Of a stretch of 64,000 nucleotides of DNA, positions 21,783 to 30,813 are shown piece by piece. A model generated the notes under the pieces. That model searched no databases, was not told where the DNA came from, and saw only the letters and a list, made by a program, of their open reading frames with translations. Source of the stretch: Sphingobacteriia bacterium (GTDB lineage: Bacteria > Bacteroidota > Bacteroidia > Bacteroidales > UBA7960). The DNA lies in the NCBI GenBank assembly GCA_011390575.1, contig JAABSE010000008.1, positions 1 through 64,000 of the forward strand, read 5' to 3'. The position numbers were made by a program, and so were the translations under genes. Position 1 is the stretch's first letter. Each line of letters starts with the position of its first letter.

Positions 21783-24248
21783 TTACCGGATGTTTGCATT
21801 CAGTTCCTTTTGCAATGTTTTGGATATCTTGTTCATTACTTTATCTATCTCCTTGTCGGTAAGGGTTTTCTTTTCGTCACTAAGGGTAAAACTTACCGCA
21901 TAGGATTTTTTACCGGCTCCTATTTTCTCATCTTTATAAACATCAAACAGGCGAACCTTTTTCAGAAGCTTGCGTTCTGCCGTTTTTGCCAGTCTTTCAA
22001 TATCGCTGAATTTTACTTCATTGCTGATTAGCAGGGCAAGGTCTCTTCTTACTTCGGGGAATTTGGGTATCTCATGATAGCGTATCGGATTTTTATCCTG
22101 CAGTTTCAGCACCATCTCCCAGTTTACAGATGCATAAAACACATCCTGCTTCAGGTCAAAAGCCTTTAGAAAATGGCGGGATACTTCTCCCAGCTCCAGC
22201 AGTGTTTTGCCATTGACAATATATCTCATCCCGGCTTCCCAGAAGTTTTCTCCATGAATTTCTTCTGCAGTGGCATCATCCAGTCGAATATTCATTTTTT
22301 GCAGCAACACCATTACCTCTGCTTTCAAATCAAAAAGTGAAACAGTTTTGGTGGGGGCATACCAGCTTTCGGGTTGCACATTTCCGGTCATAAAGAGAGA
22401 AAGCATGCGCTGTTCTCTGTAACCGGGCAGTTTCAGCGGACCTTCATGGTCTTTGGTTTCTTCCTTAAAATAGATGTTTCCAAACTCATAAAGGCTCAGG
22501 TCTGTTACCCTACGGTTCTGGTTCCAGGCAATGGTTTCCATGCCTCCGAAAAAGAGGCTTTGGCGCATTACACCCAAATCCTGGCTTAAGGGATTGAGGA
22601 TGTGTACGATACTTTCTGGTTTGAAAAGATCACTTTTGTAATAAGATGATTTGGTGAGCGAATTGTTCATGATTTCGTTGAAACCACGACCACTGAGCAT
22701 ATCGGAAGCTACATTCTGCAGTTTTTCCTTATCCGGATTGGGAGAAGAAACAATGGAAGCATGCAGTCTTTCAGGGAGTTCAATGTTGTTGTAACCATAA
22801 ATTCTCAGAATTTCTTCTACAACATCTGCTTCTCTTGTAACGTCTACCCTGTAAGGAGGAATTTCCAGCTCGAGCCCTTCGGGAGTTTCGTGTGTGATTT
22901 TGATTTCCAGGGAAAGGAGAATGTTTTTAATGGTTTCCTTATCAATGGTTTTGCCTATAAGGCGAATGGCCGATTCATAGCGGAAATCGATGATGCAAGG
23001 TTTAACCGGGCTGGGATAAACATCCATGACATCAGAGGTTATTTTTCCCCCGGCCAGTTCTTTAATGAGCAAGGCTGCCCGCTTAAGAGCAAACACGGTC
23101 ATCGCGGGGTCTGCACCTCTTTCAAACCGGAAGGATGAATCGGTGTTGATAGTATGATGCTTGGATGATTTACGTATTCCTGAAGCCTCGAAATAGGCGC
23201 TTTCAAGGAAAATATTCTCTGTGGCGTTGCTTACGCCTGCGTCAATACCTCCCAGAATACCGGCCATACACATGGGATCCTTTTCGTTGCAAATCATCAG
23301 GTCATTGCCCGTGAGCTTTACTTCCTCTTCATCCAGGGTGAGGAAGGTAGTATCTTTTTGAGGTTTGCGGATGATGACCTTGTTGCCGGCGATTTTTGAA
23401 GCATCAAAAGCATGGAGCGGCTGCCCTGTTTCATGCAAAACAAAGTTGGTGATGTCCACCACGTTGTTAATGGATTTCAAACCAATGGTTTTCAGCCGGT
23501 TTTTCAACCAGTCAGGAGATTCCTGAACTTTCACACCGGAAATTGTTAACCCGGTATATCTTGGGCAGGCATCGCTATCCTCAATTTTAATGGAGATTTC
23601 CGATGTTTTTTCATCGGGCTGGAAATGGCTGACATCCGGTTTATGGGCCTTAATAGCTGAACCGGGTTGCACATGACTGATTACTGCAGCCAAATCGCGG
23701 GCTACACCATAATGGGATGCAGCATCGATGCGGTTGGGTGTAAGGCCGATTTCTATGCAGTAATCTTCTTCTACCCTGAAGTAAGAAGCAGCAGGTGTAC
23801 CGGTCTTGACTTCCGGTTCCAGTACCATAATACCCTCATGCGAAGTCCCCAGTCCGAGTTCATCTTCGGCACAAATCATTCCGCGGGATTCCTGACCCCT
23901 TATTTTGGCTTTTTTGATTTCAAAGCTTTCTCCTGTTGAAGTATAGAGGGTGGTTCCAACGGTGGCAACCACTACTTTTTGTCCGCTGGCAACGTTGGGG
24001 GCCCCGCAAACGATGGGAAGCACTTCTGTGCCAATGTCAACAGTGGTGACGCTTAAACGATCAGCATCAGGATGTTTCCCGCAGGTGAGTACTTCACCAA
24101 TTACGATACCTTTAAGTCCACCTTTTACCGATTCTGTTTTTTCCAGTGATTCCACTTCGAGCCCGCAATCAGTAAGCAAACGGGCAATTTTCTCAGGAGT
24201 TTCGTCAATTTGAATGTAATCTTTGAGCCAATTGAGAGAGATCTTCAT
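21783..24248 (-). CDS. pheT: Phenylalanyl-tRNA synthetase beta subunit
   Basis: 821 residues, full length. Pairs with PheS to charge tRNA-Phe. The opening MKISLNWLKDYIQIDETPEKIA is followed by a tRNA-binding OB domain (about 40-150; VCGAPNVASGQKV), B3/B4 editing region (about 215-390; RYTGL, NVVDITNFVLHETGQPLHAFD), B5 domain (about 405-475), catalytic-like core (about 490-690) and the C-terminal anticodon-binding FDX-ACB domain (about 725-820; FPEVRRDLALL). Upstream on this strand TACTTTTG (24357-24364) is a candidate -7. pheS is not in the window. Confidence 0.98.
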   Translation of the reverse strand: MKISLNWLKDYIQIDETPEKIARLLTDCGLEVESLEKTESVKGGLKGIVIGEVLTCGKHPDADRLSVTTVDIGTEVLPIVCGAPNVASGQKVVVATVGTTLYTSTGESFEIKKAKIRGQESRGMICAEDELGLGTSHEGIMVLEPEVKTGTPAASYFRVEEDYCIEIGLTPNRIDAASHYGVARDLAAVISHVQPGSAIKAHKPDVSHFQPDEKTSEISIKIEDSDACPRYTGLTISGVKVQESPDWLKNRLKTIGLKSINNVVDITNFVLHETGQPLHAFDASKIAGNKVIIRKPQKDTTFLTLDEEEVKLTGNDLMICNEKDPMCMAGILGGIDAGVSNATENIFLESAYFEASGIRKSSKHHTINTDSSFRFERGADPAMTVFALKRAALLIKELAGGKITSDVMDVYPSPVKPCIIDFRYESAIRLIGKTIDKETIKNILLSLEIKITHETPEGLELEIPPYRVDVTREADVVEEILRIYGYNNIELPERLHASIVSSPNPDKEKLQNVASDMLSGRGFNEIMNNSLTKSSYYKSDLFKPESIVHILNPLSQDLGVMRQSLFFGGMETIAWNQNRRVTDLSLYEFGNIYFKEETKDHEGPLKLPGYREQRMLSLFMTGNVQPESWYAPTKTVSLFDLKAEVMVLLQKMNIRLDDATAEEIHGENFWEAGMRYIVNGKTLLELGEVSRHFLKAFDLKQDVFYASVNWEMVLKLQDKNPIRYHEIPKFPEVRRDLALLISNEVKFSDIERLAKTAERKLLKKVRLFDVYKDEKIGAGKKSYAVSFTLSDEKKTLTDKEIDKVMNKISKTLQKELNANIR

Positions 24249-24356
24249 AAAAATATGTTGTTAAAGTATAAGCATTATGTGAAACAGCCTTTCCCGTTAA
24301 GGGAAAAAACAAAATACTCAAAATCGTTCAAATTTGTTTTTGTTTTGCAAAGAGCA

Positions 24357-24364
24357 CAAAAGTA
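24357..24364 (-). promoter_or_regulatory. Candidate -7 element for pheT (TACTTTTG)
   Basis: Exact TAnnTTTG on the minus strand, about 110 nt upstream of the pheT ATG and just past the terminator of the preceding gene. No clear -33 TTG at the expected distance. Confidence 0.35.
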
Positions 24365-24380
24365 ATAATTTTGACCCATA

Positions 24381-24415
24381 AAAAAACCGGAAGACTTTTC
24401 AGGTCTTCCGGTTTT
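24381..24415 (-). terminator. Intrinsic terminator after the coiled-coil paralogue pair
   Basis: A perfect 13-bp stem: 24383-24395 pairs with 24403-24415 across a 7-nt loop. Read on the minus strand it ends in a run of six or more T. It follows the stop at 24449 and precedes the pheT promoter region. Confidence 0.9.
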
Positions 24416-24448
24416 GAATGAATTGTTGTTTATGTTGGGGGTCAATCT

Positions 24449-25399
24449 TTAATCGAGCTGGAAGAGCTTGTATCCTACCTCTCTGCCTTCAGAAAATACA
24501 ACGATGTTGTAATAGCCTTTTTCAAATCTTTCGTCCTGATCCCATACCATGCAAACTTCCTGTGAACTGTTCTGAAAGTTTACCGTGCGTTTGAGTGAGT
24601 ATTGAATGGTCTCACCCTCAAATTCCAGTGTGTTATCAGGAGATAAAGTCATTACCTGGTTGAGAGGGTTGATAAGCCTTATAAAGAAATCATAGTTGCC
24701 CGGATTGGCTACCAGGTTTTCATTGATGGTGAAACAGATCCGGATTTTGTCTGTTCTCTTTGCTCTGTCAGTGGGTTCATCTCCCCGTCTTCTCTCTCTC
24801 AGGGCAGTACCCTCCAGATTGCTGATGGTAAGAATAGAAGCTTTATCCACTTGTTCTTCCAACTCTTCAGTTCTGCTTTCCAGTTGCTGATTGCGGGCAG
24901 AGGTTTGGGCAAGGGTTTCCCGAATCTGGGCATTTTCGCCTGTTAGAACATTGTTCTCCGATTCGGCTATTTCAAGCTGGTTTCGATAGGTTTCCAGCTG
25001 GGCCTCCAGTTCTTCAATGCGCTCACGATACTGTTCAACACCTGCTCCGTCTCCGGTACCTCCTTCGCCGTGCAACTGAGCCCTAAGCTGCCTGACCCTG
25101 CGTCTCTCGGCAGCAAGTTGTGTCTCCAGCTCCTGGTTGGTAGTTTCCAGCAGTGAATATCTTTCTTCCAGCTCATCCAGTTGAATCAGCAGCAACTCTT
25201 TTTCATCGTTTACAATTCTAATTTCGCTGGCTGCAACCTGCGAATCGTGTTTGGCCGAAAGCAATTGCCTCAGAAGCAATGCTCCTCCCAAAGCTAATAA
25301 AACCGCCAATATTGCAAGGAATATCACTACCGTTGTTCCACTGCCATTTCTTGCAGGCTCATGATAGCCATTTCCTGTTTCATTATCTCTTTCTTCCAT
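24449..25399 (-). CDS. Single-pass membrane protein with long coiled coil and C-terminal beta domain (paralogue A)
   Basis: 316 residues, no family recognised. A short charged N-terminus is followed by one membrane helix (about 22-47, TTVVIFLAILAVLLALGG), a glutamate/leucine/glutamine-rich coiled coil (about 60-185) and a C-terminal domain (about 205-316) beginning TDRAKRTDKIRICFTINEN and probably beta-rich, with two Cys residues (ICFT, EVCMVWDQDE). That domain is clearly homologous to the same region of the next gene upstream (25459-26403): TDRA(K/R)RTD, CFT, PGN, EVC and WD are shared in order. The likely topology puts the coiled coil and C-terminal domain in the periplasm. It is 59 bp after its paralogue and is followed by a strong terminator. 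Confidence 0.75.
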   Translation of the reverse strand: MEERDNETGNGYHEPARNGSGTTVVIFLAILAVLLALGGALLLRQLLSAKHDSQVAASEIRIVNDEKELLLIQLDELEERYSLLETTNQELETQLAAERRRVRQLRAQLHGEGGTGDGAGVEQYRERIEELEAQLETYRNQLEIAESENNVLTGENAQIRETLAQTSARNQQLESRTEELEEQVDKASILTISNLEGTALRERRRGDEPTDRAKRTDKIRICFTINENLVANPGNYDFFIRLINPLNQVMTLSPDNTLEFEGETIQYSLKRTVNFQNSSQEVCMVWDQDERFEKGYYNIVVFSEGREVGYKLFQLD

Positions 25400-25458
25400 A
25401 ACAACAATTTTTTTAATGTGTAAAAATTTTTGCGGTGCACTGCCAGCCGGATTTGCTC

Positions 25459-26403
25459 TTAGCGCAATGAAAACTGGGTTTCACCAAGTCTGAATTCATC
25501 GGTAAAAATAGATACCAGATACATACCCTCTTCAAAATCTTCCTGCTTGTCCCAATATAGACAAACTTCTGTATTCTGGTTAATGTAATTGAATTGACCT
25601 CTCATGGAAAACTGAAGTGTATCTTCGCCAATAGTAAAAGAATAACGATCATCTTCACCCATTCTCAGGATGCTTCCTTCCGGATCGGCAATACGCACAT
25701 AGGCATTCTTGTTTCCGGGGATGGCAACAGGGTTTTCGGCAACGGTAAAACATACCTTGACACGATCTGTTCTGCGGGCTCTGTCCGTTTCAACCTCTCT
25801 GTCACGTCCTCTCAGGCGTATAGGAGTAGCGTTGATCTGGAAAGCCCTCAGGGCAGAAGCAACTTCTACTTTGCCTTCGAGTTCCTCTTTGGTTTCAGCC
25901 AACTGGGAGGTTTGGCGTGTTACACGCTGAATTTCTTCTTTCATCTCCACATTTTCGGCCTTGAGAACCCGGTTTTCGGTATAGAGGCTGTCAATCTCAT
26001 GCACATAATTCTGGGTAATCTCCCTGAGCAGGTTGAGTTGCCTGCGGATACGACGATAATCACCTTGCTGGGCAATAAGCCTTTCTATTTCACGGGCATT
26101 TTCCTGGATGATGCTGTCTTGTTGGGTAAGAACACTGTCATATTCTAATTTTACCATGTTATATTCACTTAAGACATTGTCGAGCTCATCCTTTAATTCA
26201 AGATTCAACTCATCCACAATGGTCTTTTCTGTCGAAACTTCCTGTAGGGCCTGACGACCGGTTATCAACATAAAAGTCAGTACCCCGATAATGATTACCA
26301 ATACAAGGATGGTTCCTTTGTAAACATTATCATTACGACTTTTTGTGTCATTTGCATTGCTTTTGTCTGGCAATGGCTGATTGGGTTTTTTGCTGGTGTC
26401 CAT
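25459..26403 (-). CDS. Single-pass membrane protein with long coiled coil and C-terminal beta domain (paralogue B)
   Basis: 314 residues, no family recognised. Same plan as its neighbour: polar N-terminus (about 1-28), one membrane helix (about 29-47, GTILVLVIIIGVLTFMLI), coiled coil (about 55-185) and the homologous C-terminal domain (about 203-314) with TDRARRTDRVKVCFTVAEN, PGN, EVCLYWDKQEDFEEG and a terminal QFSLR. The membrane and coiled-coil parts have diverged more than the C-terminal domain. First gene of a two-gene minus-strand unit. Tandem duplication followed by divergence suggests the two products work together, perhaps as a heteromer spanning the inner membrane and periplasm; this is inference. 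Confidence 0.75.
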   Translation of the reverse strand: MDTSKKPNQPLPDKSNANDTKSRNDNVYKGTILVLVIIIGVLTFMLITGRQALQEVSTEKTIVDELNLELKDELDNVLSEYNMVKLEYDSVLTQQDSIIQENAREIERLIAQQGDYRRIRRQLNLLREITQNYVHEIDSLYTENRVLKAENVEMKEEIQRVTRQTSQLAETKEELEGKVEVASALRAFQINATPIRLRGRDREVETDRARRTDRVKVCFTVAENPVAIPGNKNAYVRIADPEGSILRMGEDDRYSFTIGEDTLQFSMRGQFNYINQNTEVCLYWDKQEDFEEGMYLVSIFTDEFRLGETQFSLR

Positions 26404-26703
26404 TTAGTAAGATAAAAATTAATGGGTTTGTAATAAAATTGGTTGCAAAAAGGGTTCTTACTTATCTCTCATACGCAAAAAATAATCAATGGTTTCTTTG
26501 GCCGGGATAAATAAGCAACAGTTTGGTTTGTGTAATATTGATTGTTTGCTTTGTTTTTCGTGTGCAAATTTATATTATTTTTATGATTAAAGCTTGTTTT
26601 CAATAATTTAAGGGAGGGTTTTCATGTTTAAGTTTTGCCAACAATTTAAAAACCCCGTTAAAAAACATAAAATGTCCGTTCTGATAATTTGCACGTTTTT
26701 ACT
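26404..26703. other. 300-bp AT-rich divergent intergenic region
   Basis: Separates the coiled-coil pair from comF. TAATTTG at 26684-26690 is a near -7 motif (one base short of the consensus spacing) directed at comF, which would leave almost no leader before the ATG at 26704. TAATATTG (26533-26540) is another near match on the plus strand. No gene or RNA is apparent. Confidence 0.4.
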
Positions 26704-27408
26704 ATGTGGTTGGGCAGTATAAAAACATACGCGGCAGATTTTTTATCATTGTTTTACCCCAGGTTATGCAATGGTTGCAAAAGAGCACTGATTCAGCAAG
26801 AGGAGTGCCTTTGCAGCTTTTGCCGTTATGAATTGCCATTTACGCACTTACATAACGACCGGGAAAATGCTATGTCGCAGGTTTTCTGGGGCCGCGTTGA
26901 TATTGAAACGGCGACAGCCTTGTTTTATTTTCAGAAAGGAGGGAAGGTTCAGACCCTGATTCATCAGTTTAAATACCGGGGAAAAACCGAAATAGGGATT
27001 TATCTTGGCAAGTTGCTGGGGCGACAACTTAAAAATCATCCTGTTTGGGAGCCTGTGGATGTTATCGTTCCGGTTCCCCTGCATGAAAAAAAGCAGTACA
27101 AGCGAGGCTTTAATCAGAGCGAAATATTTGGAGGTGGTATACGTGAAACTTTTGGCAGGCCCATGAATACAACTAACCTGGTCAGGATTACCAAAACGGA
27201 TACCCAAACCCGCAAAGCCCGTTTTAAAAGATGGGAAAATGTAGAAACTGTTTTTAGCATAAAAAACCCAGAAGCTTTCCGGGGAAAGAACATATTGCTC
27301 ATTGACGATGTAATAACCACCGGCTCAACCCTGGAGGCTTGTGCCCATCAGCTCAAAGCCATCAAAGGGGTAAGAGTGTGGGTAGCAACCATAGCCATGT
27401 CGGTATAA
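26704..27408 (+). CDS. comF: ComF family phosphoribosyltransferase-like protein
   Basis: 234 residues from the ATG giving MWLGSIKTYAADF; a TTG 5 codons upstream overlaps a promoter-like motif and is unlikely. The N-terminus has a zinc-finger-like pair, CNGCKR and CLCSFCRYELP. The C-terminal half is a phosphoribosyltransferase fold with the PRPP-binding loop NILLIDDVITTGSTLEAC and YKRGFNQSE. ComF proteins take part in DNA uptake/processing in competent bacteria, but the molecular activity is not settled. Stop is 7 bp from the convergent lamin-tail gene. Confidence 0.93.
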   Translation: MWLGSIKTYAADFLSLFYPRLCNGCKRALIQQEECLCSFCRYELPFTHLHNDRENAMSQVFWGRVDIETATALFYFQKGGKVQTLIHQFKYRGKTEIGIYLGKLLGRQLKNHPVWEPVDVIVPVPLHEKKQYKRGFNQSEIFGGGIRETFGRPMNTTNLVRITKTDTQTRKARFKRWENVETVFSIKNPEAFRGKNILLIDDVITTGSTLEACAHQLKAIKGVRVWVATIAMSV

Positions 27409-27414
27409 TCTTTT

Positions 27415-30400
27415 CTACCCTCCCAATACCGCAGTTTTGCGGTAGGTTTTTACAATACCTCCGGGTTCGAACAATTCAATAAAAATGATGTAAATCCCCA
27501 TGTCAGCTTTCTGATAATCATCCGTTGTGCCATCCCATGTGAGAATACCACGGATTGCCAGCAATTCTGAGCGGTAGAGGGTTTTTATATGCCTGCCACG
27601 ACTGTCATAAACCGTTAGGTTGGCTGTAAACCCCGGTGATTCCATTTCGTAAGAGATGTTGAGTACATCGTCTACCCCGTCGTTATCGGGCGAGAAAATC
27701 CTCGGGTACACTTCAATAATATTCTCCCCGGCATCCACATTCATGGTGAATTGTGAGTTTTTGTAGCCCGGTGTTCCAAAACCTGCATTGCGCGCAGCAG
27801 AATGCCAGTTGTTGCGATCCAGGGTGGGTCGGTCGTAGTTGAGGCGTTCAAGGGCAACCCCCTTTTTGTCTGTAAGCAAGGCATAGTGCATATCTTCTTC
27901 GTAAATCATCATATCAGTAATCTGGTGGCCCTTGCTGGCAAGCACTATAATACCCCGGGTATTGGTCATGGAGGAAAGGGTCATGGGGATAAACCACAGC
28001 GGGTTGGGAGTCATATATTGTTGCCTTACAATTTCCGGGTTTGGTGTTAGCACCCGGTATTCTTCGGGAAAAATCAAATGACTCTCGCTGCTGATTTCTC
28101 TTAGGGTAGTCAGGATATCTTCAATGGTGTCTTTAGAAGAAAGGATATAATGCCGGAGATCAATTATTTTTGGGGAACGATTATAAATTTCCACATATCT
28201 TTCTCCGCGATCAGGCGGGTTGAAGAGAATTTCATTGATCACTATGTCCAGGCTGTCTGCCATAGCGGGAATTCCCACTTTTGCTGTGTTCCCGTCCAGG
28301 GCATTACCGGCACAATCGGTAATGTCTTGCGAGACCGTAACTTCATAGATTGTTTCGGGTAGCAGGGGCTGCGGGAGAATCAGGTCAACCCTTCGGTTTT
28401 CCGGGGCAAACAACACAATGCTCTGGGGTTGTCCTGCTTCCTTATTTACAATATAGTAGTCCGTCACGCTTAGGGTCTCAGGTTTCATGGGTTCACTGAA
28501 AAAGAGGCTGATGCGGTCGGCCCCTTCAAAGCCGGCTCTGAGTAAATACGGCGAATCGTTATCCGGATTCTCTCCCATTACTGAGTTGGTTTCGCCCGGT
28601 GTTCCTCCCCTGGGGTCAACTGAAGCACGCCAGTTTTGTGCTTCTCCGCAAAAATTGAACGGGTCAATTTTTTCCAGTGCCCAGCCACCATCGGCTTTGG
28701 ATGCATCGCGGTACCATGATTCGTTATAACTCACAAAGGAAATAACTTCCTGCTGTGGATTTTTCAGGCTGAGGGTTTGACCACCTATGGTAAGAAAGTT
28801 GGTAGAAAGGTCAGGCACAGCAAAAACATGGGGATATTCCTGCAGGGCTGCAGCTCCTTCCGGAGTACTGAGTACCACATGGTCGCCCGGCATAACCGGA
28901 ATAAAGGGCAATTCACGGCTGGTGGTGCCATGGGTTAGGGTCCAGTCTCTTAAATGAACAGGAAATTGAGATGTGTTGTATAGTTCGATATACCGGTAAG
29001 GAGGGAGATCCACAGAAGGGGTCGGGTTGGCCATGAGTTCATTAAATACCACATCAAAGGGTTCAGCAGAATAATCGGCAAAAGTGGCAGTATTGATTGC
29101 CAGAGAATTCCCGGCACAATCCGTAATTTGTTCCGAGAGCGTAACATCATATATTGTGTTGCTTTCAAGGGGTGCTTCGAGCATGAGTACAACCTGTTTG
29201 AAAACAGGTTCCTGAACGGATACAGACATGGGATGGGTATTGTTTACCAGGTAATTTTCGGTCAGGGAAAGAGATGCTTCGTTCATGGTTTCACTAAAAT
29301 AGAGGGTTACCTGGAGCGCATTTTCCCATGCTGCACCCAGCAAAACCGGAGGTGTAGTGTCCGGGTTGTCATCTCTCACGGCGTTTTCCTGGCCGGGAGT
29401 TCCGCCCTGTGAATCTGTGCTTGCCATCCAGTTGTCCGCTTCCCCGCAAAAATTGAATGGATCAATTTTTTCCAGCGACCAGCCCCCGTCAGCTTTAACC
29501 AGGTCATCGTACCAGGTATCAGCATAGCTAACAAAAGAGACCAGTTCACCCTGATCGTCCCACAGGGTAAGTGTTGTCCCTGAATTGGTGAGTGCTGTGG
29601 CTGAGAGTCCCGGCACAGCCACCACGTTGCCAAATGGATCCAGTTCATCGATGGCACCGCTGGTAGTCAGCACCAGAAATCCACCTGCCGGAATCATTGC
29701 GAAGGGAATTTCCCGGTCCGTATTGCCATGTCGGAAGGTCCACCCTTCCAGGTTGATGTCAAATGTCGAAGTGTTGAACAGCTCAATATATTCATGGGGA
29801 GGGAGCCCCACCTCAGGCGTTGGGTTGGCCATGATTTCATTAAATACTACATCGAATCTTTGGGGTATGTACCACGAAAAATTTCCGGTAAAGTTAGCCA
29901 TGGTATTGCCGGCAAAGTCCTGTATGTTGACGATTGTAAGGTTATAAATTTCTCCCACCACGAAGTCAGATGAAAAAGTCAGTGTTACTTTGTTGGGAGT
30001 AGCTTCATTGCGAATGGCCGAGTCGGGAGTCCCTATTCCCTTGTCAACAAAATAATGGGTCACATTTTGGGCTGTAACAGGCTCCACTGCTTTGGAGAAC
30101 AATACTTCTACTGTATTGTCCGATGTTGCCATGATGCTGCTTACTTCCGGCGGAGTGGTATCGGGGATGATTTCACCCACATAAAAATCATCGAAATAAA
30201 AGCCCGAAGAATTGGTTACGGTGTAGTTGCATTTCAAACCAAACCATTGTGCAGTTGTATGCTGGTTGTCGAAAACGGTTCCCTGGGGGAGAAAAAAGGT
30301 AGCCCCGGTAGGATCCGCAAAAAACTCCCAGTTGCCTGTCTCATCACGGGTGGCTTTGATGCGTATTCGGTTGTTGCTCAAAGTGGCAATATTGGTACTG

Positions 30401-30813
30401 CCGGCCATAAGCTCGGTATGATTGTCGCCGGTTTGCCTGTAGAAATAAAGCCTTTTGTTGTCGGTTCCATCCTTGCCGATGCGGATATAATACCCATTGA
30501 GTGGCCCGGAGAGGTTATCACTATCGCTAATCAGATAAATCAGGGGATGATTGTTGCTGGATGGGGTAAAGGCTATCCTGACCCAGAACTCCCACTGGGT
30601 GTTATTAATAGCACTGCTTTGCGTTGCAAGGTATGCTTCACCGGCCTGATTGTCATTAAGGCGCAGCATCTGGCTTTCCACCAGGAACTTGTTGGCATCG
30701 CCAATCCATTGCGGATTTTGGGTAAAATCGCCATCGCTGAAATCATCTGTAAACTGGGCAAAGGAAAACAATGGCAGGAGAAAAAACAGGGGTAAAATTG
30801 CTTTTCTGTACAT
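27415..30813 (-). CDS. Large secreted protein with three lamin-tail and three Ig-like units
   Basis: 1132 residues. A signal peptide (MYRKAILPLFFLLPLFSFAQ) is followed by an N-terminal laminin-G-like region (about 20-210). A repeating pair comes next: an Ig-like domain (TTPPEVSSIMAT, TTPPVLLGAAW, DSPYLLRAGFE starts) and a lamin-tail domain (VFNEIMANPTP, VFNELMANPTP, VINEILFNPPD starts). The first two lamin-tail units share long near-identical stretches, including KIDPFNFCGEA. The C-terminal about 95 residues (FSPDNDGVDDVLNISYEM, GRHIKTLY, WDGTTDDYQKADMGIYI) form the CHU_C/FlgD-like module of T9SS and gliding-associated proteins. Lamin-tail domains in bacteria are found on exported proteins and nucleases; no catalytic domain is visible. 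Probably a surface adhesin or structural protein. Confidence 0.85.
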   Translation of the reverse strand: MYRKAILPLFFLLPLFSFAQFTDDFSDGDFTQNPQWIGDANKFLVESQMLRLNDNQAGEAYLATQSSAINNTQWEFWVRIAFTPSSNNHPLIYLISDSDNLSGPLNGYYIRIGKDGTDNKRLYFYRQTGDNHTELMAGSTNIATLSNNRIRIKATRDETGNWEFFADPTGATFFLPQGTVFDNQHTTAQWFGLKCNYTVTNSSGFYFDDFYVGEIIPDTTPPEVSSIMATSDNTVEVLFSKAVEPVTAQNVTHYFVDKGIGTPDSAIRNEATPNKVTLTFSSDFVVGEIYNLTIVNIQDFAGNTMANFTGNFSWYIPQRFDVVFNEIMANPTPEVGLPPHEYIELFNTSTFDINLEGWTFRHGNTDREIPFAMIPAGGFLVLTTSGAIDELDPFGNVVAVPGLSATALTNSGTTLTLWDDQGELVSFVSYADTWYDDLVKADGGWSLEKIDPFNFCGEADNWMASTDSQGGTPGQENAVRDDNPDTTPPVLLGAAWENALQVTLYFSETMNEASLSLTENYLVNNTHPMSVSVQEPVFKQVVLMLEAPLESNTIYDVTLSEQITDCAGNSLAINTATFADYSAEPFDVVFNELMANPTPSVDLPPYRYIELYNTSQFPVHLRDWTLTHGTTSRELPFIPVMPGDHVVLSTPEGAAALQEYPHVFAVPDLSTNFLTIGGQTLSLKNPQQEVISFVSYNESWYRDASKADGGWALEKIDPFNFCGEAQNWRASVDPRGGTPGETNSVMGENPDNDSPYLLRAGFEGADRISLFFSEPMKPETLSVTDYYIVNKEAGQPQSIVLFAPENRRVDLILPQPLLPETIYEVTVSQDITDCAGNALDGNTAKVGIPAMADSLDIVINEILFNPPDRGERYVEIYNRSPKIIDLRHYILSSKDTIEDILTTLREISSESHLIFPEEYRVLTPNPEIVRQQYMTPNPLWFIPMTLSSMTNTRGIIVLASKGHQITDMMIYEEDMHYALLTDKKGVALERLNYDRPTLDRNNWHSAARNAGFGTPGYKNSQFTMNVDAGENIIEVYPRIFSPDNDGVDDVLNISYEMESPGFTANLTVYDSRGRHIKTLYRSELLAIRGILTWDGTTDDYQKADMGIYIIFIELFEPGGIVKTYRKTAVLGG

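Follow-up and report, generated by a model that had tools for sequence, protein, structure and literature searches.

An unnamed coiled-coil envelope family with an Ig-like domain, conserved in one class of Bacteroidota

MreC proteins have one N-terminal helix, a coiled coil and a C-terminal beta domain. The GldM/PorM dimer is described in PMC5790014 as having four domains, measuring about 180 Å and spanning most of the periplasm, and the OmpA-like domain of PorE is described in PMC7192894 as binding a peptidoglycan fragment. Two adjacent genes of a Bacteroidota genome, A and B, are compared here with these systems. They lie in a 64,000-nucleotide stretch of contig JAABSE010000008.1 (assembly GCA_011390575.1), hereafter the window. 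No description of their family was recognized among titles and abstract starts of the open-licence PMC literature, and PMC1887533, a catalogue of Bacteroidetes-specific proteins, may list a homologue.

The gene pair and its shared plan

Gene A (24449-25399, minus strand; 316 aa) and gene B (25459-26403, minus strand; 314 aa) are separated by 59 nt. The original prediction of two adjacent paralogues held, with open reading frames at both positions and 88 of 297 residues identical in BLASTP (30%, 125 bits, E = 2e-38), the alignment starting at the membrane helix and running to the end of the C-terminus; A and B are thus paralogous as judged by sequence comparison. The predicted motif series TDRA(K/R)RTD, CFT, PGN, EVC and WD was present in the same pairwise alignment, in the same order in both proteins.

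Between A and pheT, fold analysis located an intrinsic terminator with a perfect 13-bp stem and a U-run (about 24380-24415, minus strand), in agreement with the perfect terminator proposed 3' of the pair. The 85-nt stretch holding this hairpin had a folding z of -4.8 relative to shuffles, and the hairpin was absent from the list produced by a simple terminator scan. The TANNTTTG promoter-like sites occurred at chance level in the window (59 found vs 58.98 expected), and an Rfam search of positions 23500-28000 gave no match. Co-transcription of A and B is plausible.

The downstream neighbor of the pair is pheT (21783-24248, minus strand), which directly follows B in seven loci without A, and a comF-like phosphoribosyltransferase gene (26689-27408, plus strand) is divergent from B. 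The product of the gene adjoining comF (27415-30813) is 1132 aa long; LTD and Big_5 domains were recognized in it, as was a type IX tail (CHU_C) barely above the cut-off. A Big_5/DUF2141 protein was also found beside comF in locus L120, and in L122 by sequence clustering.

The common plan that had been proposed for both proteins, one helix, a coil and a C-terminal domain, agreed with the hydropathy of the groups, the heptad periodicity and the structural models. The predicted membrane helix spans about residues 23-43 in A (25271-25333, minus strand) and about residues 30-47 in B (26263-26316, minus strand), according to sequence reading and group hydropathy, and the B helix was also helical in the model. 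Per group, a single strong N-terminal hydrophobic stretch was found for A and for B, with no second one. The coiled coil of A, delimited by periodicity (24845-25264, minus strand), contains a Gly-rich break (HGEGGTGDGAG), and that of B, delimited by the model and periodicity (25858-26259, minus strand), comprises helices up to residue 182 with a break at 112-115. Both coils are about 135-145 residues long, and their heptad-type periodicity was reached by 0 of 2000 shuffles (p = 0.0005 for A, and the same for B).

Across 127 members (the lipoprotein members L075 and L076 being excluded from 129), the linker between helix and domain measured 140.1 ± 7.0 residues. It was 135.9 ± 1.3 residues within the B rows, and the class rows had the widest spread (132-166, sd 9.6). 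A continuous coil would form a rod of ~20 nm at 0.15 nm per residue; both A and B have a break about halfway along the coil, so that a hairpin of half this length is possible. The full-length B model reached a pTM of only 0.42. Searches of A and B against Pfam and NCBIfam gave no model reaching its curated cut-off among the matches listed (for A, the best 25 of 43 in Pfam and the best 25 of 31 in NCBIfam), most of them being coiled-coil look-alikes, and a PDB sequence search with query A1 returned coil matches. Rz-like spanin matches in PHROGs to the helix and coil of A (E = 6.6e-5 and 4.4e-4), with none to B, were read as coil similarity.

Distribution and history of the family

Besides A and B, the genome that carries the window has one further clear member, C, on contig C154, which makes three. 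Weak matches of A in this genome were found on contigs C157 (E = 0.11, two stops) and C132 (E = 0.63). A 94-aa ORF on C157 (L007, 1525-1806) matched the family profile with an E of 5.7e-6 in a stretch with stops, and may be a coil look-alike or a remnant.

A member was present in 54 of the 59 genomes of the relatives search (own genome included) and missing from 5. In a draw of 296 genomes from the phylum, 64 (own genome included) had a member, all matches falling in the class of the window; among the same-class genomes listed, 64 of 73 were positive and 9 lacked a member, 212 rows of the draw without a match being unlisted. The nine listed same-class genomes and the five relatives without a member indicate that the function is not universal. 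Two or more members were found in 23 of the 64 positive genomes of the draw, so that roles may differ between copies. Members occur in Bacteroides finegoldii, Parabacteroides distasonis, Phocaeicola massiliensis, Prevotella sp. oral taxon 299 and Spirosoma oryzicola; the three annotated members among those of named species are labeled 'hypothetical protein'.

Outside the phylum, the family search covered plasmid, phage and viral collections and one genome-contig scan with B alone, which yielded two loci, while the viral-contig scan with query A1 detected no relative. A match in MT836022.1 (L154) was rejected as a phage gene, with TolC, HlyD and ABC permease genes downstream as in gut Bacteroidales; this record, deposited as 'Bacteriophage sp.' (UNVERIFIED), looks like a bacterial chromosomal fragment. 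Three PLSDB records likewise look like chromosomal pieces deposited as plasmids, with mdh, recG, ndk and tolQ-like genes in L132, mdh in L155, and the same TolC-HlyD-ABC genes as MT836022.1 in L131.

The history of the copies was inferred from 129 members, retained from 148 matches after removal of identical rows and of the truncated L015 (249 aa), in quick trees with SH-aLRT support only and with long-branch warnings; in a second tree the A, B and C rows were thinned, and the long-branch row L072 was among those omitted. The B rows formed one clade (31 rows, support 100), and five rows belonging to the order's other families grouped with it. The A rows formed a 22-row clade with the solitary family member L078 (support 100), all belonging to the window's family or to the MAG locus L010, and the C rows formed a third group (support 86). 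B was present in 32 of the 35 genomes of the window's family (own genome included).

Relative to the window's copies, A was less conserved than B in the ten loci of the same genus (e.g. 78 vs 90% identity in L011, 64 vs 77% in L014, and 55 vs 68% in L018). The gap was often larger in distant loci, but A and B were nearly equal in L037 (51.7 vs 51.1%) and close in L032, L038 and L039; all these identities come from partial alignments. On the basis of these trees and identities, A is mostly the faster-evolving duplicate, restricted within this sample to the window's family, and B is the copy whose clade also takes in members from the order's other families.

These data bear on the proposal that A and B are obligate partners in a heteromeric coiled-coil scaffold. 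The two genes are adjacent, co-directional and 59 nt apart, A stands beside B in 24 of the 32 B-bearing genomes of the family (two of them truncated at contig ends), and tandem pairs were also found in two other genomes. However, A was absent from the remaining 8 of these 32 genomes, all of one genus, with B directly preceding pheT in six of them and in the MAG locus L009 (the other two being short loci without pheT); among the 20 genomes of the order's other families in which a member was found, 18 showed one member only, and the lower conservation of A also speaks against a fixed partnership. As A is missing beside B in a quarter of these genomes and, in this sample, confined to the window's family while the B clade is wider, an obligate heteromer is unlikely, and the paired scaffold of the original prediction is disfavored. 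In lineages that carry both genes the two proteins may form a heteromer, but this cannot be the general mode of the family. The two other tandem pairs lay far from A and B on the tree; apart from them, no members lay close together by position in the other 63 positive genomes of the draw. That in G115 (L136, 6103-7997) fell in a four-row clade with support 98, although the sisterhood itself was without support, and that in G350 (L146, 5441-7544) in a four-row clade with support 83. The tandem arrangement of A and B is otherwise an ordinary duplication of a conserved envelope protein.

C-terminal domain and side of the membrane

Single-chain models were computed using AlphaFold2 with five sequences, for full-length B and for the isolated A domain. 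The C-terminal domain of A (24452-24844, minus strand; 131 aa modeled, with Cys222 and Cys283) was predicted as a beta-sandwich with a mean pLDDT of 81 and a pTM of 0.74, and that of B (residues 183-314; 25462-25857, minus strand; with Cys218 and Cys281) also formed a beta-sandwich, with pLDDT values of 67-93 in the ten-residue blocks that begin at residue 191. The best structural matches were Ig-like domains of GH2 enzymes, with a Z of 10.9 for A (rmsd 2.5, 103 residues aligned) and of 10.6 for B (rmsd 2.2, 100 residues aligned); AlkC and Brr2 chains were also among the matches. Names absent from the fold lists, such as GldM, were given no evidential weight. According to these models, the domain is an ordinary Ig-like beta-sandwich, a kind of fold that is common and gives little indication of function.

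The claim that this domain resembles nothing recognized thus stands for curated families, none of which was matched among the rows listed, but not for the fold, which is Ig-like (Z 10.6-10.9); the confident match that would have told against novelty exists at the level of fold and not of a named protein family. Among the 62 domain rows searched, no named Ig-like Pfam family was found, and the B row matched no family at all. The other rows had scattered weak matches, the commonest being DUF6941 (11 of 62, best E = 0.0019, among 25 of 32 families listed). DUF2914 (PF11141) matched weakly in one of the 62 rows; a search for it came up empty in the own genome and in every control genome alike, so that its absence carries no weight. 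A PDB sequence search with the domain profile gave nothing below an E of 0.15.

Extracytoplasmic placement of the domain is well supported by three independent lines of evidence, in line with the envelope location first proposed. Firstly, three of 149 distinct members (L075, L076 and L140) have, in place of the helix, a lipoprotein-type N-terminus, assigned by the lipobox pattern. Secondly, G165 encodes a 934-aa protein (L133, 6697-9498) with a signal-peptide-like start, PD40, CarboxypepD_reg and OmpA modules, and then the family domain at its C-terminus, a fusion that provides a useful functional pointer. Thirdly, the two domain cysteines were both present in 77 members, both absent in 51 and discordant in one (129 members); on the tree, seven independent pairs changed jointly and none oppositely (sign test, p = 0.0156), while in one further pair a single cysteine changed. 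Such joint gain and loss is as expected of a disulfide.

Charge is weaker and less uniform evidence for topology than these three lines. Mean net charge was more positive before the helix than after it in five of six groups, the lone L078 row being reversed, whereas raw K+R counts clearly favored the N-terminal side only in A, B and C (order rows 2.7 vs 2.8; class rows 2.4 vs 3.5).

Proposed role and comparison with known systems

The reading we prefer, to which we give about an even chance, is that of an inner-membrane-anchored, homo-oligomeric periplasmic rod with an Ig-like docking domain directed towards the wall or the outer membrane. A and B would be single-pass inner-membrane proteins with a short cytoplasmic tail and their C-terminus outside, the coil of 135-145 residues forming a periplasmic rod with the Ig-like beta-sandwich at its tip. 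The rod would most likely self-associate as a parallel homo-oligomer, and the Ig-like domain could dock on a partner at the cell-wall or outer-membrane side, giving a role as envelope tether, spacer or adaptor. B would be the member common to the order, whereas A, duplicated in tandem in one lineage, would fill this role in an accessory form; the third copy, C, is located elsewhere in the genome. Homo-oligomerization, the continuity of the rod, its docking and its function are what we infer beyond the computed features. A bolder version appears decidedly improbable, namely a trans-periplasmic ruler in which a rod of near-fixed length carries a disulfide-bonded Ig-like head that reads or holds the spacing from the inner membrane to the wall or outer membrane, with lineage copies wired to sensor kinases and efflux pumps.

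Gene neighborhoods differed by lineage. In the window's family the neighboring genes were comF and pheT. Six loci of class family f30 (L120, L122, L134, L135, L139 and L141) had comF and proS, and there too the comF relative was divergent beside the member. In eight loci of the order (L041, L048, L054, L058, L110, L111, L132 and L155), mdh stood beside a member, and the neighbors of C varied by subgroup (amidase, pyruvate dehydrogenase E1, M20 peptidase, helicase), with none common to all. As no neighbor is shared by all lineages, the neighborhood names no function. In L150, L151 and L153, gldM lay about 8-10 kb from comF-B-pheT, with a similar six-gene run after pheT, which forms a loosely conserved block.

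Some of these neighborhoods recall signaling, and the family could be a periplasmic input or accessory subunit of membrane signaling proteins, in which the Ig-like domain would sense the envelope and the coil would pass the signal to a kinase or regulator. Directly upstream of the member, and co-directional with it, lay a gene for a HAMP sensor histidine kinase in Spirosoma oryzicola, G307 and G248; in the comparison of loci, L145, L147 and L156 were the three with a HAMP histidine kinase and a response regulator. In G044 (L075, 1143-9715), the lipoprotein member lay between two protein kinases, each with a hydrophobic stretch after its kinase domain, and PP2C and FHA genes were close by; in Parabacteroides distasonis a cyclic-nucleotide-binding protein was encoded 2 nt after the member. 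Kinase-linked lineages are nevertheless few, the comF/pheT, comF/proS and mdh neighbors elsewhere are housekeeping genes, and A and B have no cytoplasmic signaling domain, all of which speaks against this reading, which is quite unlikely.

An accessory of TolC-HlyD-ABC tripartite efflux systems in gut Bacteroidales is a very improbable identity for the family. Six of 65 loci had TolC, HlyD and ABC permease genes downstream of the member (L111, L130, L131, L154 and L155) or near it (L132), with a gap to TolC of 8 nt in Prevotella, but these genes were not detected in the other 59 loci, some of them short, and none was seen among the window ORFs between 19000 and 32000.

Among described systems, GldM/PorM resembles A and B in having an inner-membrane helix and a periplasmic rod, which in A and B are predicted and in which the rod is a coiled coil. 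On this similarity of plan (as described in PMC5790014) rests the idea of a type IX secretion or gliding component, together with the finding that ten genomes of the family have gldM on one contig with the member, at a distance of about 8-20 kb. The two differ in length, GldM ORFs being about 530 aa, and hhalign of the 62-row domain alignment against three GldM sequences gave a probability of 0.4% (domain only). The phyletic pattern also differs in part, with a member but no GldM in G042 (100% complete) and GldM but no member in G037 and G052. Moreover, in three loci B (or A) is separated from gldM by pheT and another six genes, and A and B do not lie in a gldKLMN cluster, judging from gldM, the one gene of it searched, which in the own genome is on contig C137 and not beside A and B on C187. 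Membership in the type IX or gliding machinery is, on these grounds, extremely improbable.

MreC is similar to A and B in length and plan, but the own genome has a separate MreC (G000:C155, E = 2.8e-42). For B, 17 families were listed up to an E of 10, and PF04085 (MreC) was not one of them; the alignment of the NCBIfam MreC model with B was confined to 36 residues of the coil (E = 1, 8.6 of 343 bits). With the Ig-like domains of GH2 glycosidases, A and B share the beta-sandwich arrangement, but identity was 4-18% among the rows listed, and in place of a catalytic domain they have a membrane-anchored coil. The PorE-type PD40-CRD-OmpA architecture is approached by G165, which joins the family domain to PD40, CarboxypepD_reg and OmpA; A and B themselves have none of these modules, and the fusion, which is an indirect hint at binding to peptidoglycan or an outer-membrane protein, is one protein of one genome.

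An unnamed family present in 64 of the 73 same-class genomes listed shows that knowledge of the Bacteroidota envelope is incomplete, also for gut commensals (Bacteroides, Parabacteroides and Phocaeicola), and the conserved coil length and linked cysteines offer direct tests of a periplasm-spanning spacer in these bacteria. Overall, the family of A and B resembles GldM or MreC in plan and belongs to neither; it is an unnamed, broadly conserved envelope family of one Bacteroidota class and not a new kind of system.
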